From Phycisphaerales bacterium (GTDB lineage Bacteria > Planctomycetota > Phycisphaerae > Phycisphaerales > UBA1924): a stretch of DNA of 64,000 bases. Each line of letters opens with the position of its first letter. Positions within the stretch are counted from its first letter, which is position 1. A program made the translations under genes and the position numbers. The stretch is taken from positions 62,001 through 126,000 of the forward strand of contig CANHCQ010000007.1 of the NCBI GenBank assembly GCA_947459215.1. Direction: 5' to 3'. The notes below the pieces were generated by a model that searched no databases, was not told the DNA's origin, and saw nothing but the letters and a program-made list of their open reading frames with translations. Shown here piece after piece: positions 10,735 through 43,750 of the stretch.

Positions 10735-11226
10735 TCAGTTCGCGAAGTGGGCGAAGGCGCGGTTGGCTTCGGCCATCTTGTGGGTCTGGTCGCGGGTCAT
10801 CATGGCCTTGCCTTCCTTCTTGGCGGCCGAGTAGAGCTCGTCGGCAAGGCGGGCGGCGATCGGGCGACCCTTTTCGCCGCGGACCGAGTCGATCAGCCAG
10901 CGGAAGGCCAGCGACTGCTGGCGCTTGTTGTTGACCTGCATGGGCACCTGGTAGTTGGCACCGCCGATGCGCTTGGAGCGGACCTCGACGAACGGCTTGA
11001 CGTTCTCGATGGCCATGTGGAACAGGGCGAGGCTGTTCTCCGGCTTCTCCGGAGCGGTCTCCTTGACCAGCTTCTCGTCGATGATGTCCATCGCGTCGTA
11101 GACGACGCGCTGGGCGACGGACTTCTTGCCCTGACGCATGATGCAGTTGATGAAGCGTGAGAGGACCTTATCGCCGAAGCGGGGGTCCGGACGCAGCTGA
11201 GATTCGGAGGCGGTGAAGTTGCCCAT
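10735..11226 (-). CDS. rpsG: 30S ribosomal protein S7
   Basis: A 163-residue primary 16S rRNA-binding protein that nucleates assembly of the 30S head and contacts mRNA and tRNA at the exit site. Recognisable family stretches are FINCIMRQGKKS near residue 30, the ENVKPFVEVRSKRIGGANYQ segment, and the C-terminal MAEANRAFAHF. ATG at 11226 is taken as start, with GGGAG 11 nt upstream; a TTG at 11235 would add three residues but would leave that site too close. It lies 120 bp downstream of rpsL, the classical str order. fusA and tuf do not follow, because a terminator comes straight after. Confidence 0.97.
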   Translation of the reverse strand: MGNFTASESQLRPDPRFGDKVLSRFINCIMRQGKKSVAQRVVYDAMDIIDEKLVKETAPEKPENSLALFHMAIENVKPFVEVRSKRIGGANYQVPMQVNNKRQQSLAFRWLIDSVRGEKGRPIAARLADELYSAAKKEGKAMMTRDQTHKMAEANRAFAHFAN

Positions 11227-40406: not shown

Positions 40407-40895
40407 TCACGCCCCCAGCGAAGCGAGCACTTCCTCAAAGTTCATCGCCTTTCCCGGCTCGCGGTTCTGGGCCCACTTGACCTTGGCAACGCCGTCGGCC
40501 GACTGGCCAAAGACGACCGTGCCGCGCTGCGAGACGTTCAGGTCCTTCCAGTACAGCCCGAACGCCTTGCACACCTCGCGGTGCATGTCCGCGAGCAGGG
40601 GCTGCTTGAGCCCGAGCTGCTTGGACCACTCGGCCTGCACCGCGAACGAGTCGCACGAGATACCGACGACCTGCGAGCCCTTGCTCGACCACTTGGCCAT
40701 CTCATCGCTCACGCACTTCATTTCCGTGCTGCAGACGCTGGTGAACGCCAGCGGGTAGAAGCACAGGACGACATCGCCCTTCTTGACCGCGTCGCTCAGC
40801 GTCCAGTCGTTGCGGTTCTGGTCCTTGAGGGTGAAGTTCGGGGCGGTCTCGCCGACGGCGAGGGGCTTTTCGCGGGGTGTCAGGGTCGTGGACAT
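40407..40895 (-). CDS. Peroxiredoxin of the AhpC/Bcp type
   Basis: A 162-residue thiol peroxidase reducing hydrogen peroxide and organic peroxides. The peroxidatic cysteine is in AFTSVCSTEM near residue 55, in the canonical P-x3-T-x2-C spacing (YPLAFTSVC). Other cysteines at CVSDEM, ISCDSF and EVCKAF could act as resolving residues. No signal peptide, so cytosolic. CCGGAG lies 5 nt before ATG 40895, which rules out the much longer frame running upstream. It is divergent from the YggS-family gene. Confidence 0.92.
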   Translation of the reverse strand: MSTTLTPREKPLAVGETAPNFTLKDQNRNDWTLSDAVKKGDVVLCFYPLAFTSVCSTEMKCVSDEMAKWSSKGSQVVGISCDSFAVQAEWSKQLGLKQPLLADMHREVCKAFGLYWKDLNVSQRGTVVFGQSADGVAKVKWAQNREPGKAMNFEEVLASLGA

Positions 40896-41064
40896 CGGAA
40901 CTCCGGTGAAAGGGTGGGGGATAGCGATCAATGCCAGCACCGAACGGCGTGGCGGGTGCCGCTGCACATCATCTCGAACGGCGCGATATGCTATTCCCAT
41001 GCGGCGGAGCCGCAGCGTTCGATTCCCGGACGCGACGCACCCACGACGCAGGCAGGAGGCCGAC

Positions 41065-42477
41065 ATGGCACGCCCCCAATCGACACCATCGTCCGCAAAG
41101 GGCACCAAGCACGGCAAGCCGACCGCGGCGGCCTCCAAGCCAACATCCAAGGCAGCTTCCAAGACAGCCACCAAGCCCGGCTCCAAGCCGCTCGCCAAGC
41201 CAGCCGCCAAGGTCGGCCCGAAACAGACGCCGAAGGTCACTGCCAAGCGCACATCCGTTCCCGCTCGCCCCGCGGTCGTCGTCAAGGTCACGCAGATCCC
41301 AGGCAAGACCCCGGCCAAGCCCGCCGACAAGAGCGCGAGCCGGAAAGTCGCCCGAAAGTCAGCGGCGACGGCATCCGCGAAGGCCCTCGTTCCCGCGTTC
41401 GATGAGCCGCTCGACGCATTGGAACTGGACGCTGAAAGTCTGGGCGTCGAAGATCTCGACGCGGAAAGCCTCGAAGCCGAGACGTCCGACAATCCCGTCG
41501 CGATCGCGGCAGACACCGCCTCGCCCACCCGAATCGCTGCGTTGGCGAACCCCATGCCCACCTCCCGCGCTCCACAGCGTCGGGAGCCCGTCGCCGTGAC
41601 ACCAGTCGCACCCATCATGCCTACACCTCGCGCCCTGCCCGAGACGCTCGTTGAGCGTTACGAACTCGTCAAGTCCCGCATCGCCGCCGCGGCCAAGCGC
41701 AGCGGCCGCCGCGCCGAGGACATCCTCCTCGTCGCTGTCACCAAGTACGCCACGCCCGAGCAGGTGCGCGAGTTGCTCGCCCTGGGCCACCGCGACCTTG
41801 GCGAGAACCGCGTGCAGCATCTGCTGCAACAGGCCGCGATGGTGGAGGAGTATCAGGCTCGACTCAGGACGCTGCCGGCCACCCGAAAGGCCGCCGCCGA
41901 CGCAGCAGCCACGCTCTTTGACGCGGTCCCTGGCAAGCCCGGTATCCCCGACCCCGCCAGCACCAACGCCCGTTGGCACATGATCGGGCATCTGCAGCGC
42001 AACAAGGCCAAGAAGATCGTCGAACTGGTGCGCCTAACCCACTCCGTCGATTCGCTCCGCGTCGCTGAGGAACTGCAGACCCTCGCGCTCAAGAAGGACC
42101 GTGTCATCGACGTCCTGATCCAGGTGAACTGCTCGGGCGAGGATCAGAAGTTCGGCTGTCCGATCCCAGCGACGATCCCGCTCGCCGAGCAGATCGGGTC
42201 GATGATCAACATCCGTGTCCGCGGACTCATGACGATGGCCGCCTACAGCGACAACCCGGAGGACGCCCGCGCAACCTTCGGACGCTGCCGCGAGATGTTC
42301 GAGGAGCTCAAGGGCAGTGGCGTCGTCGAAGGACCGGTCAACATCCTTTCGATGGGGATGACCGGCGATTTTGAGGTTGCCATCGAAGAGGGTGCGAACT
42401 GCATCCGCATCGGGTCCGCGATCTTCGGCGAGCCCCCCGCGAGCGCGACAGACGAGGCGGAGAGCGATGAGGAGTAA
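41065..42477 (+). CDS. YggS/PLPBP-family protein with a long histone-H1-like N-terminal tail
   Basis: A 470-residue protein. The last 270 residues are the pyridoxal-phosphate homeostasis protein: the PLP lysine lies in LLVAVTKYA, followed by LGENRVQ, WHMIGHLQRNKAKKIV, LIQVNCSGEDQKFG, LMTMAAYSDNP and LSMGMTGDFEVAIEEGA. The first 190 residues are unlike the family: about 110 residues of Lys, Ala, Pro, Ser and Thr (for example SKTATKPGSKPLAKPAAK), then an acidic stretch with repeated DAESL units. GGAGG lies 6 nt before ATG 41065, so the tail is part of the protein. An insert (about residues 270-310) also enlarges the PLP domain. The stop overlaps the next gene by 11 bp. Confidence 0.92.
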   Translation: MARPQSTPSSAKGTKHGKPTAAASKPTSKAASKTATKPGSKPLAKPAAKVGPKQTPKVTAKRTSVPARPAVVVKVTQIPGKTPAKPADKSASRKVARKSAATASAKALVPAFDEPLDALELDAESLGVEDLDAESLEAETSDNPVAIAADTASPTRIAALANPMPTSRAPQRREPVAVTPVAPIMPTPRALPETLVERYELVKSRIAAAAKRSGRRAEDILLVAVTKYATPEQVRELLALGHRDLGENRVQHLLQQAAMVEEYQARLRTLPATRKAAADAAATLFDAVPGKPGIPDPASTNARWHMIGHLQRNKAKKIVELVRLTHSVDSLRVAEELQTLALKKDRVIDVLIQVNCSGEDQKFGCPIPATIPLAEQIGSMINIRVRGLMTMAAYSDNPEDARATFGRCREMFEELKGSGVVEGPVNILSMGMTGDFEVAIEEGANCIRIGSAIFGEPPASATDEAESDEE

Positions 42478-43750
42478 GGCGATCATCGTGGCGGCGTGTG
42501 TGCTGTTCGCCGCGCCGGCTGTCGAGGCGCAGGTCGGGCCACAGATTCCGACATCGCCCGTCACGGCGAGCGCCGAGGTTCAGACGCGATTGGCCGCGCT
42601 CGTGCAGGCGTATCGCCAGGGACCGACGCGGGACTCGGTGTCGATTCGTGTCAAGAACGATCGCGGTCAGACGTCGCAATCCACTGTGCAGGTCTCGGTC
42701 GATCCCGGGTCGCCGACGCGGCTGCGGATGGAACTGGGACGTCTCGTCGTGACCGCCACCGGGCCGATCGTTCACGCCACCATCAAGAGCGACGAAGCTC
42801 GCTACTGCGAGTTCACGCTGCCGGACGGATCGCTCAAGAGCGGGCTCGAGAAGCTCTTCCCGAAGCTCGCCTTGCCGCAACTGGTGCTCGCGGATCGCGG
42901 GGTCGCGAGCGACAACCTGGCCGATCTGGGCCTGGACCCGCGAGGCGTGAGCGATGTGCGCTGGCGCAGCAGCCGGCTGGAGCGCGGCACTGGTCGGATC
43001 ATGCTCGAGGGCGATATCTCGGGCGGAACGATCAAGCTTGGCATCGATCGCGTCACCAATCGCCTTCGCACTGCCGAACTGACTCTTGATGATGGTCCGG
43101 TGCGGGCGATCGATGTGTCCTGCCGGGCGATGGACGCCGGTGAACCGCAGGGTTGGGCGGTTGATGTGACGGGACGCACGAAGGTCGACGCGCTCAGCGA
43201 TCTCAAGGGCGATGGCGAGGTGATCCGCGTGGGTCACGCCCTGCCCAAGACGCTGATCTTCTTTACGACCGGCGGCTCGCGATGGGAGGAGCAGAGCGAT
43301 CAGTTCAACTCCGTGCTCATTCTCACGCGGTTCAACGTCAAACCGATGCGAGATGCCGATCCCGAAGCTCGTGACGCAGCGTTCCGCGACGCTCGGCGTC
43401 TCGTCCTTCCGTCGGTGCGGCTCCGCGATCAACTGCTCGTCGGTTCGGACGGGATCTACAGCGTTCGCTGTGCACCTCTGATCGACGAGGCGGACATGAC
43501 CGTGGGCATGGCGGCATTGCTCTTCCGTGTGTTCGACAGCGAAGACAATGTCGCGGTTCCGGACAGACGCAACGAGACTGTTCTGCTCGCAGAATCTTCC
43601 GGCGATTTCGACCCAGTGCTCGCCGGCGGCCTCGCTTCGGCCGTGGTGGTTGACAAAGAACGCGTGGTGCGAGCGATCGTGACGCTCGATGACCCGAACG
43701 CCGCCGAGAAGCGTGTACGAGCGGTCCTCGAAGAGATCGGCAAGAAGTAG
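42467..43750 (+). CDS. Exported protein of unknown function, LolA-like N-terminal half
   Basis: A 427-residue protein with a signal peptide (about 1-21, IIVAACVLFAAPAVEA). The first half has the repeating strand pattern of LolA/DUF2092-type sheets (SVSIRVKNDRGQTSQST, RIMLEGDISGGTIKLGIDRV). The second half, from about residue 240, has VIRVGHALPKTLIFFTTGGS and a C-terminal strand-helix pattern like a degenerate redoxin, but no cysteine motif. I would not assign a function. The start is ATG 42467, inside the end of the YggS-like gene with an 11-bp overlap, so translation is coupled. Confidence 0.7.
   Translation: MRSKAIIVAACVLFAAPAVEAQVGPQIPTSPVTASAEVQTRLAALVQAYRQGPTRDSVSIRVKNDRGQTSQSTVQVSVDPGSPTRLRMELGRLVVTATGPIVHATIKSDEARYCEFTLPDGSLKSGLEKLFPKLALPQLVLADRGVASDNLADLGLDPRGVSDVRWRSSRLERGTGRIMLEGDISGGTIKLGIDRVTNRLRTAELTLDDGPVRAIDVSCRAMDAGEPQGWAVDVTGRTKVDALSDLKGDGEVIRVGHALPKTLIFFTTGGSRWEEQSDQFNSVLILTRFNVKPMRDADPEARDAAFRDARRLVLPSVRLRDQLLVGSDGIYSVRCAPLIDEADMTVGMAALLFRVFDSEDNVAVPDRRNETVLLAESSGDFDPVLAGGLASAVVVDKERVVRAIVTLDDPNAAEKRVRAVLEEIGKK

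Follow-up and report, generated by a model that had tools for sequence, protein, structure and literature searches.

Why does a YggS/PLPBP-family protein in this bacterium carry nearly two hundred residues ahead of its domain? PLPBPs are described as single-domain proteins in the partial text of PMC9605639, and an excerpt of PMC11602438 gives the plant N terminus and the human C terminus as only ~20 residues longer than YggS. In the window (the whole stretch of 64,000 nucleotides that was analysed), a gene of this family at 41065-42477 on the + strand runs from an ATG at 41065 to a stop codon at 42475-42477 and encodes 470 residues, 188 of which precede the domain. The protein departs in this from the single-domain description. 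Since that description is the usual one for the family and no curated criterion, the core still belongs to it. A sequence-only reading of the locus had seen a histone-H1-like tail that could tether the protein to DNA, RNA or polyphosphate. The parts of the gene are these:

41065..41388, + strand: residues 1-108, a basic arm rich in Lys/Ala/Pro/Ser/Thr, with a net charge of +24 and predicted to be disordered
41131..41211, + strand: degenerate 12-bp tandem repeat GCCGCCAAGCCA within the basic arm, 6.8 copies, 74% matches (Tandem Repeats Finder)
41389..41499, + strand: residues 109-145, an acidic stretch that lacks Lys and Arg and has a net charge of -13 (by composition)
41425..41480, + strand: degenerate 15-bp tandem repeat of LDAES type within the acidic stretch, 3.7 copies, 65% matches (Tandem Repeats Finder)
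41500..41628, + strand: Pro/Ala-rich linker, residues 146-188
41629..42477, + strand: YggS/PLPBP domain, residues 189-470 plus the stop codon (TIGR00044, Ala_racemase_N, YggS fold)

Residues 1-108 (K20 R5 A23 P14 S12 T12 D1 E0) and the acidic stretch that follows agree with the earlier description of some 110 Lys/Ala/Pro/Ser/Thr-rich residues and then an acidic segment ahead of YggS/PLPBP, and the span given there for the extra part, 41065-41640, was correct to within a few bases (the non-domain part ends at ~41628). With the acidic stretch counted in, the tail as a whole has a net charge of only +13. AlphaFold2 gives residues 1-188 no secondary structure, with block pLDDT values of 44-69, and this segment is predicted to be a disordered arm. 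A signal or membrane segment was judged unlikely from the lack of predicted secondary structure and from a VLIMFWY content of 16% of tail residues. Pfam and NCBIfam profile searches, taken to E values of 1, returned no family matching the tail; on this result a fusion with a known domain was rejected. Searched against its own genome at E values up to 10, the tail matched only itself.

An open frame alone is weak evidence for the tail because other frames here are open too. The initiation signal lies just upstream of the gene:

41054..41059, + strand: AGGAGG ribosome-binding site, spaced 5 nt from the ATG

The sequence GGCAGGAGGCC around this site is identical in all seven PLPBP homologues of the window genus, six of which start with ATG and one with GTG. 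All seven run in frame through to the core, with 226, 171, 80, 82, 72, 86 and 82 residues ahead of the PLP lysine. Because GGCAGGAGGCC and the in-frame continuation recur in 7/7, sequence comparison leaves the start at 41065 well supported as the true start; a broken gene was rejected on the same in-frame count. The comparison of start regions in relatives that the sequence-only reading had proposed therefore bore out its single start with a good ribosome-binding site, the site, the start and the in-frame continuation being the same across the genus (7/7), and a downstream start with loss of frame in the tail was not seen among the seven homologues. Outside the genus, the tail is missing at nearly every locus compared. 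GC content by codon position in residues 1-108 is 0.57/0.66/0.81 and in the core 0.68/0.44/0.85, both peaking at the third position; the values for the 150 bases upstream, taken in frame, are 0.60/0.72/0.68.

The assignment of the core to YggS/PLPBP was upheld by TIGR00044 (174.9 bits against a curated cut-off of 106.25, with the domain at approximately residues 189-460) and by the fold of the predicted model, which matches the TIM-barrel PLPBP structures 7ubq, 7uat and 1w8g (E 8e-20 to 5e-19, TM-score ~0.9 by target length). Ala_racemase_N (PF01168) scored 70.2 bits against 24.1. AlphaFold2 core blocks are mostly at pLDDT 87-96, the exceptions being the loop listed below (57-71), the C terminus (56) and a single block that reaches 77. 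Three features lie within the domain:

41743..41745, + strand: K227 codon; the residue corresponds to K36, the PLP lysine in E. coli YggS, and is invariant in 31/31 aligned proteins
41827..41964, + strand: enlarged domain loop, approximately residues 255-300 (lower model confidence, alignment)
42148..42150, + strand: codon of K362, equivalent to E. coli YggS K137, which is needed there for RNA binding; invariant in 31/31 aligned proteins

K227 aligns with the alanine of the K36A-bearing mutant structure 7ub4, and K362 with that of the K137A-bearing 7ub8. The core domain, the PLP lysine, the K137 equivalent and the fold are common to the window protein, E. coli YggS and human PLPBP/PROSC (COG0325, TIGR00044), and by analogy the binding of PLP and of RNA is presumably common to them as well. 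The window protein differs in its ~188 extra N-terminal residues and in its larger loop, which has ~44 residues versus ~10 in E. coli YggS and varies in length across aligned family members. The C terminus (42439-42474 of the window) is acidic, as by eye it is in many of the 31 aligned proteins.

Two genes flank the locus:

40407..40895, - strand: gene whose sequence looks peroxiredoxin-like, starting 169 bp upstream of PLPBP
42467..43750, + strand: downstream gene overlapping the PLPBP end by 11 bp, start chosen by eye

A homologue of the former lies upstream of PLPBP in 94 of 126 family/order loci, a count that includes near-duplicate records and some short flanks. The downstream gene gave no match in a Pfam search; a homologue of it adjoins PLPBP in 7/7 genus loci and was not found at the other loci, many of which have little downstream sequence (100 bp in some). 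Its product is apparently secreted, judging by eye from a hydrophobic start.

How widely the arm is distributed can be read from the number of residues ahead of the PLP lysine. A PLPBP gene was found in seven of the eight window-genus genomes, the eighth (G005) giving no PLPBP match. Elsewhere in the family and order we compared 109 distinct loci, the window genus and a second genus (g13) set aside: 96 have at most 52 residues before the lysine (median 40), nine have 53-75 and four have more, by automatic start. Two of the 109 (L049 and L184) were flagged as basic, but their automatic starts are implausible. By inspection, such a tail is absent from 108 further measured loci drawn from the phylum and from contigs of named genomes, the phylum loci being 50 among the matches listed (30 chosen as the best, 20 for their long open frames) and those from named genomes being drawn from the best 80 of 584 matches. 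Loci without the anchor were left out (L025, L041 and L045, 3/189; L204 and L220, 2/110). On the 96/109 and the 108 we rejected the idea that the tail is general to PLPBP. Because the genus has 72-226 residues where 96 of 109 outside loci have 52 or fewer, the arm is, on this sequence comparison, an addition made at the level of the genus; two neighbouring species have its longest forms.

A tree built quickly from 75 core sequences places the window genus in one group (SH-aLRT 100), within which the two long-armed species are neighbours (91). Short basic leaders occur also in g13, in each of the three genomes where the gene could be read (64, 70 and 75 residues; 3-5 Lys, 0-1 Arg). In the same tree g13 falls among loci without a basic leader, the deep forks being weakly supported, and the basic leaders of the two genera are likely, from the sequences, to have had two origins. 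Within the window genus the tails hardly align position by position beyond their ends; the excess of Lys over Arg persists. The five shorter tails have 3-8 Lys, and that of G004 has 3 Lys and 3 Arg with a net charge of +4. Among the seven homologues, the acidic stretch occurs in the window species only and is missing from the other six.

To what extent does the lysine content stand out from the genome? In residues 1-108, Lys:Arg is 20:5, compared to ~4.0%:6.8% over the genes called in a 464-kb sample from this genome (binomial P ~1.5e-5) and 12:23 in the core of the protein itself (Fisher P 0.0005). Of the 312 genes called in that sample, two, PLPBP and RsfS, contain a stretch of 108 residues with 20 or more Lys and no more than one Asp or Glu. 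Summed over the seven genus tails, K:R is 63:31 against a genome background of ~4.0:6.8; the pooled P value of 4e-9 is optimistic, as the seven share ancestry, and the bias of a single tail is not always significant (0.13 for L003, 0.40 for L005).

In 864 kb of this genome, five of 610 called genes have a Lys-rich tail segment anywhere. In three of these (PLPBP, RsfS and a SnoaL-like protein) the tail is N-terminal and lacks a TM-like segment; of the other two, one is a TM-like protein and the other, 404 residues long, has the segment well away from its N terminus. A proteome-wide habit of Lys-rich tails was rejected on these 3 of 610 cases, a count made with a simple gene caller that misses genes. 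The SnoaL-like protein (L252:15933-16442) has a Lys/Ala/Pro/Ser-rich start behind an AGGAG motif. At 2143-2685 the window also encodes a protein with a TM-like N-terminal segment and a Lys/Pro/Ala-rich C-terminal tail. A 400-kb sample of another family genome (G059; 295 called genes) held a single comparable tail, on a HARE-HTH protein, where it is likewise N-terminal (L275:6987-7460). The sample from G002 was under-called (198 genes in 400 kb, the stretch with RsfS not included); its zero hits were not used as a rate.

RsfS, the ribosomal silencing factor, carries Lys-rich N-terminal tails in all eight window-genus genomes; the tailed loci of the genus and the wider family are these:

G000:C7, domain 10809-11093, - strand: RsfS with a Lys-rich tail (L308)
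L301-L307, L312, L336, L363, L364, L367, L368, L371, L376, L380, L382, L385 and L386: further tailed RsfS loci

These tails resemble the PLPBP arm in composition and N-terminal place, and in G019, a g13 genome in which RsfS lies shortly downstream of PLPBP with a small ORF between, the order is also basic, acidic, then domain (the domain match starts at residue 188; the stretches were assigned by eye). They differ in sitting on a ribosomal silencing factor domain and in being more widespread, present in 10 of 51 family genera by a 40-residue Lys-window rule applied to whatever open frame precedes the domain, which need not begin at the true start. RsfS was measured by tblastn, and the 51 are the genera with both genes measured; G005, G009 and G145, which have no PLPBP side, were left out. 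The starts of RsfS in the genus are less certain (GTG or TTG in 7/8, with weak motifs). The association between the two tails is weak: Fisher P is 0.035 over 51 genera, uncorrected for kinship and with only two PLPBP-tail genera, and rises to 0.20 under a slightly stricter PLPBP threshold. Eight of the 49 genera with an untailed PLPBP have an RsfS tail. The PLPBP of G127 (g13) passes the 40-residue rule and its RsfS does not, and the PLPBP leaders of G004, G019 and G101 fail it.

What, then, is the arm for? We favor, at a probability of roughly 0.44, the reading that PLPBP, an RNA-binding protein to begin with, holds RNA more strongly through a polycationic arm. According to excerpts of PMC11602438, E. 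coli YggS and human PLPBP were reported in 2024 to bind RNA, with tmRNA and RNase P RNA as the major RNAs found with them; no tRNA complex is described for YggS K36A or K137A, and the apparent Kd of YggS for tRNA is 5.1 uM in the apo form versus 23 uM in the holo form, PLP weakening binding. Because the E. coli and human proteins bind RNA, RNA is the best supported of the three ligands that the sequence-only reading had offered, and we infer it here by analogy. Prokaryotic Lys-rich low-complexity regions are linked to nucleic-acid binding in the partial text of PMC6821194. In the mechanism we propose, YggS/PLPBP would have gained an N-terminal disordered polycationic arm in one Planctomycetota genus, which its best named matches place in the Phycisphaerales. 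The core, ordinary in itself, would still bind PLP and would use its conserved lysines to bind RNA, as E. coli and human PLPBP do. The arm would most likely add affinity of an electrostatic, non-specific kind for tRNA, tmRNA, RNase P RNA or ribosomes, and its benefit, if any, would be a raised local concentration and residence time on RNA, with sequence specificity not set by the arm. In the window species, the acidic segment that separates the arm from the core may restrain the arm through its charge, or it may serve as a spacer. Counted for this reading are the Shine-Dalgarno context and in-frame arms (7/7), the Lys bias kept in place of sequence, the predicted disorder, the retained K36 and K137 equivalents, the RsfS tails (8/8) and the rarity of such N-terminal tails (3 of 610). 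Counted against it are the repeats, which fit slippage without selection, a GTG with GGAG at residue 178 and the weak RsfS association. For the SnoaL-like protein we know of no RNA link.

A bolder version, which we consider unlikely, would make PLPBP a dedicated translation-associated protein in these bacteria: the arm, like that of RsfS, would anchor it to ribosomes or structured RNAs, its apo/holo state would control occupancy, and the acidic segment would be an intramolecular brake competing with RNA.

The degenerate 12-bp and 15-bp tandem repeats suggest that the arm grew by repeat expansion, and they also feed the strongest rival of the RNA reading, near-neutral low-complexity growth, in which slippage lengthened a tolerated disordered leader whose charge has no specific partner. 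A spread of 72-226 residues within one genus, with no positional conservation, would be expected of such growth, as would an acidic repeat in the window species only, among seven homologues. Harder to reconcile with it are an excess of Lys over Arg that persists (63:31 over the seven tails) despite an unconserved sequence, a basic leader in every one of the seven and the rarity of such segments among the called genes (the 3 of 610 above). We regard neutral growth as possible but doubtful.

The likeness to bacterial H1-like tails leads to two further ligands. Extracts of PMC9239181 describe AlgP of Pseudomonas aeruginosa, and PhaF, as having a long Lys/Ala/Pro-rich predicted-disordered segment on an unrelated domain, as the window protein does. 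In AlgP this tail is C-terminal with 25 perfect KPAA repeats, whereas the window arm is N-terminal with degenerate repeats only; and AlgP is associated with DNA and polyphosphate granules (same extracts), while for the window arm any such binding is putative. The comparison with AlgP- and HctB-type tails therefore held for composition (Lys/Ala/Pro-rich, acid-poor) and predicted disorder, and failed for family match, KPAA array and C-terminal position. That the arm binds polyphosphate, placing the protein at granules as the AlgP KPAA tail does in Pseudomonas, is quite unlikely in our estimate: a polyphosphate kinase match was found in 8/8 genus genomes, but the enzyme is widespread (7 of 14 control genomes had a match too), a regular KPAA array is lacking from the tail and nothing observed links PLPBP itself to polyphosphate.

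A histone-H1-like DNA tether holding the protein on the nucleoid is improbable. It draws on the same compositional resemblance to AlgP and on the HARE-HTH protein, whose domain binds DNA and which has the only comparable tail in the sample of the other family genome. Against this, the tail has no Pfam match, its net charge is cut to +13 by the acidic stretch, and the published nucleic-acid binding of the core family, in the excerpts of PMC11602438, is to RNA.

It is very improbable that the true start is internal, near the usual family position, such that the tail would be missing from most or all of the protein or that both forms would be made. A start-capable codon does lie 39-42 residues ahead of the PLP lysine, near the usual family start, in all seven genus homologues (an ATG in three, namely the window species, G001 and G004, and a GTG in the remaining four), and the linker of the window gene has in-frame ATGs at residues 164 and 185 without a Shine-Dalgarno motif and the GTG at residue 178 with GGAG. 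The codons near the family start lack a good Shine-Dalgarno motif, with a weak GAG in G003 only, in contrast to the AGGAGG at the upstream start in 7/7, and frame and Lys bias are maintained in the tail; a minor short form may nevertheless be made. We infer the evolutionary route from these same codons, which we take for relics of an earlier start: an upstream start shift probably created the arm and left a start-capable codon near the former position without a good ribosome-binding site. Hardly credible at all is a PLP sponge, in which arm lysines would form reversible aldimines with PLP and buffer free cofactor: PLPBP is a PLP-homeostasis protein, residues 1-108 include 20 Lys and aldehydes react with the free amines of Lys, but only 3-8 Lys occur in the five shorter tails, and the same tail type is found on RsfS and the SnoaL-like protein, for neither of which we know a PLP role.

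A further parallel is of another kind, an RNA-binding housekeeping protein whose disordered N-terminal extension is reportedly Lys-rich. Like the window PLPBP, the RNA-binding housekeeping protein of PMC6213541 has, in the excerpt, a disordered N-terminal extension missing from prokaryotic counterparts; that extension orders on tRNA binding and sits on a different core, whereas AlphaFold2 predicts no helix in the window arm. H1-like tails (AlgP, extracts of PMC9239181) and Lys-rich low-complexity regions on prokaryotic nucleic-acid-binding proteins (partial text of PMC6821194) were already known. The titles and abstract openings listed from open-licence papers showed no report of a YggS/PLPBP extension or tail, of a Lys-rich or disordered RsfS extension, or of Lys-rich or disordered N termini in Phycisphaerae. 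What is new here is a real, lineage-specific, long Lys-rich arm on PLPBP, with a putative role.

The parallel RsfS tails hint at a common target, for example ribosomes or ribosomal RNA. Armed, disarmed and naturally unarmed PLPBP homologues would offer a natural experiment on whether RNA contact matters for the function of the protein.
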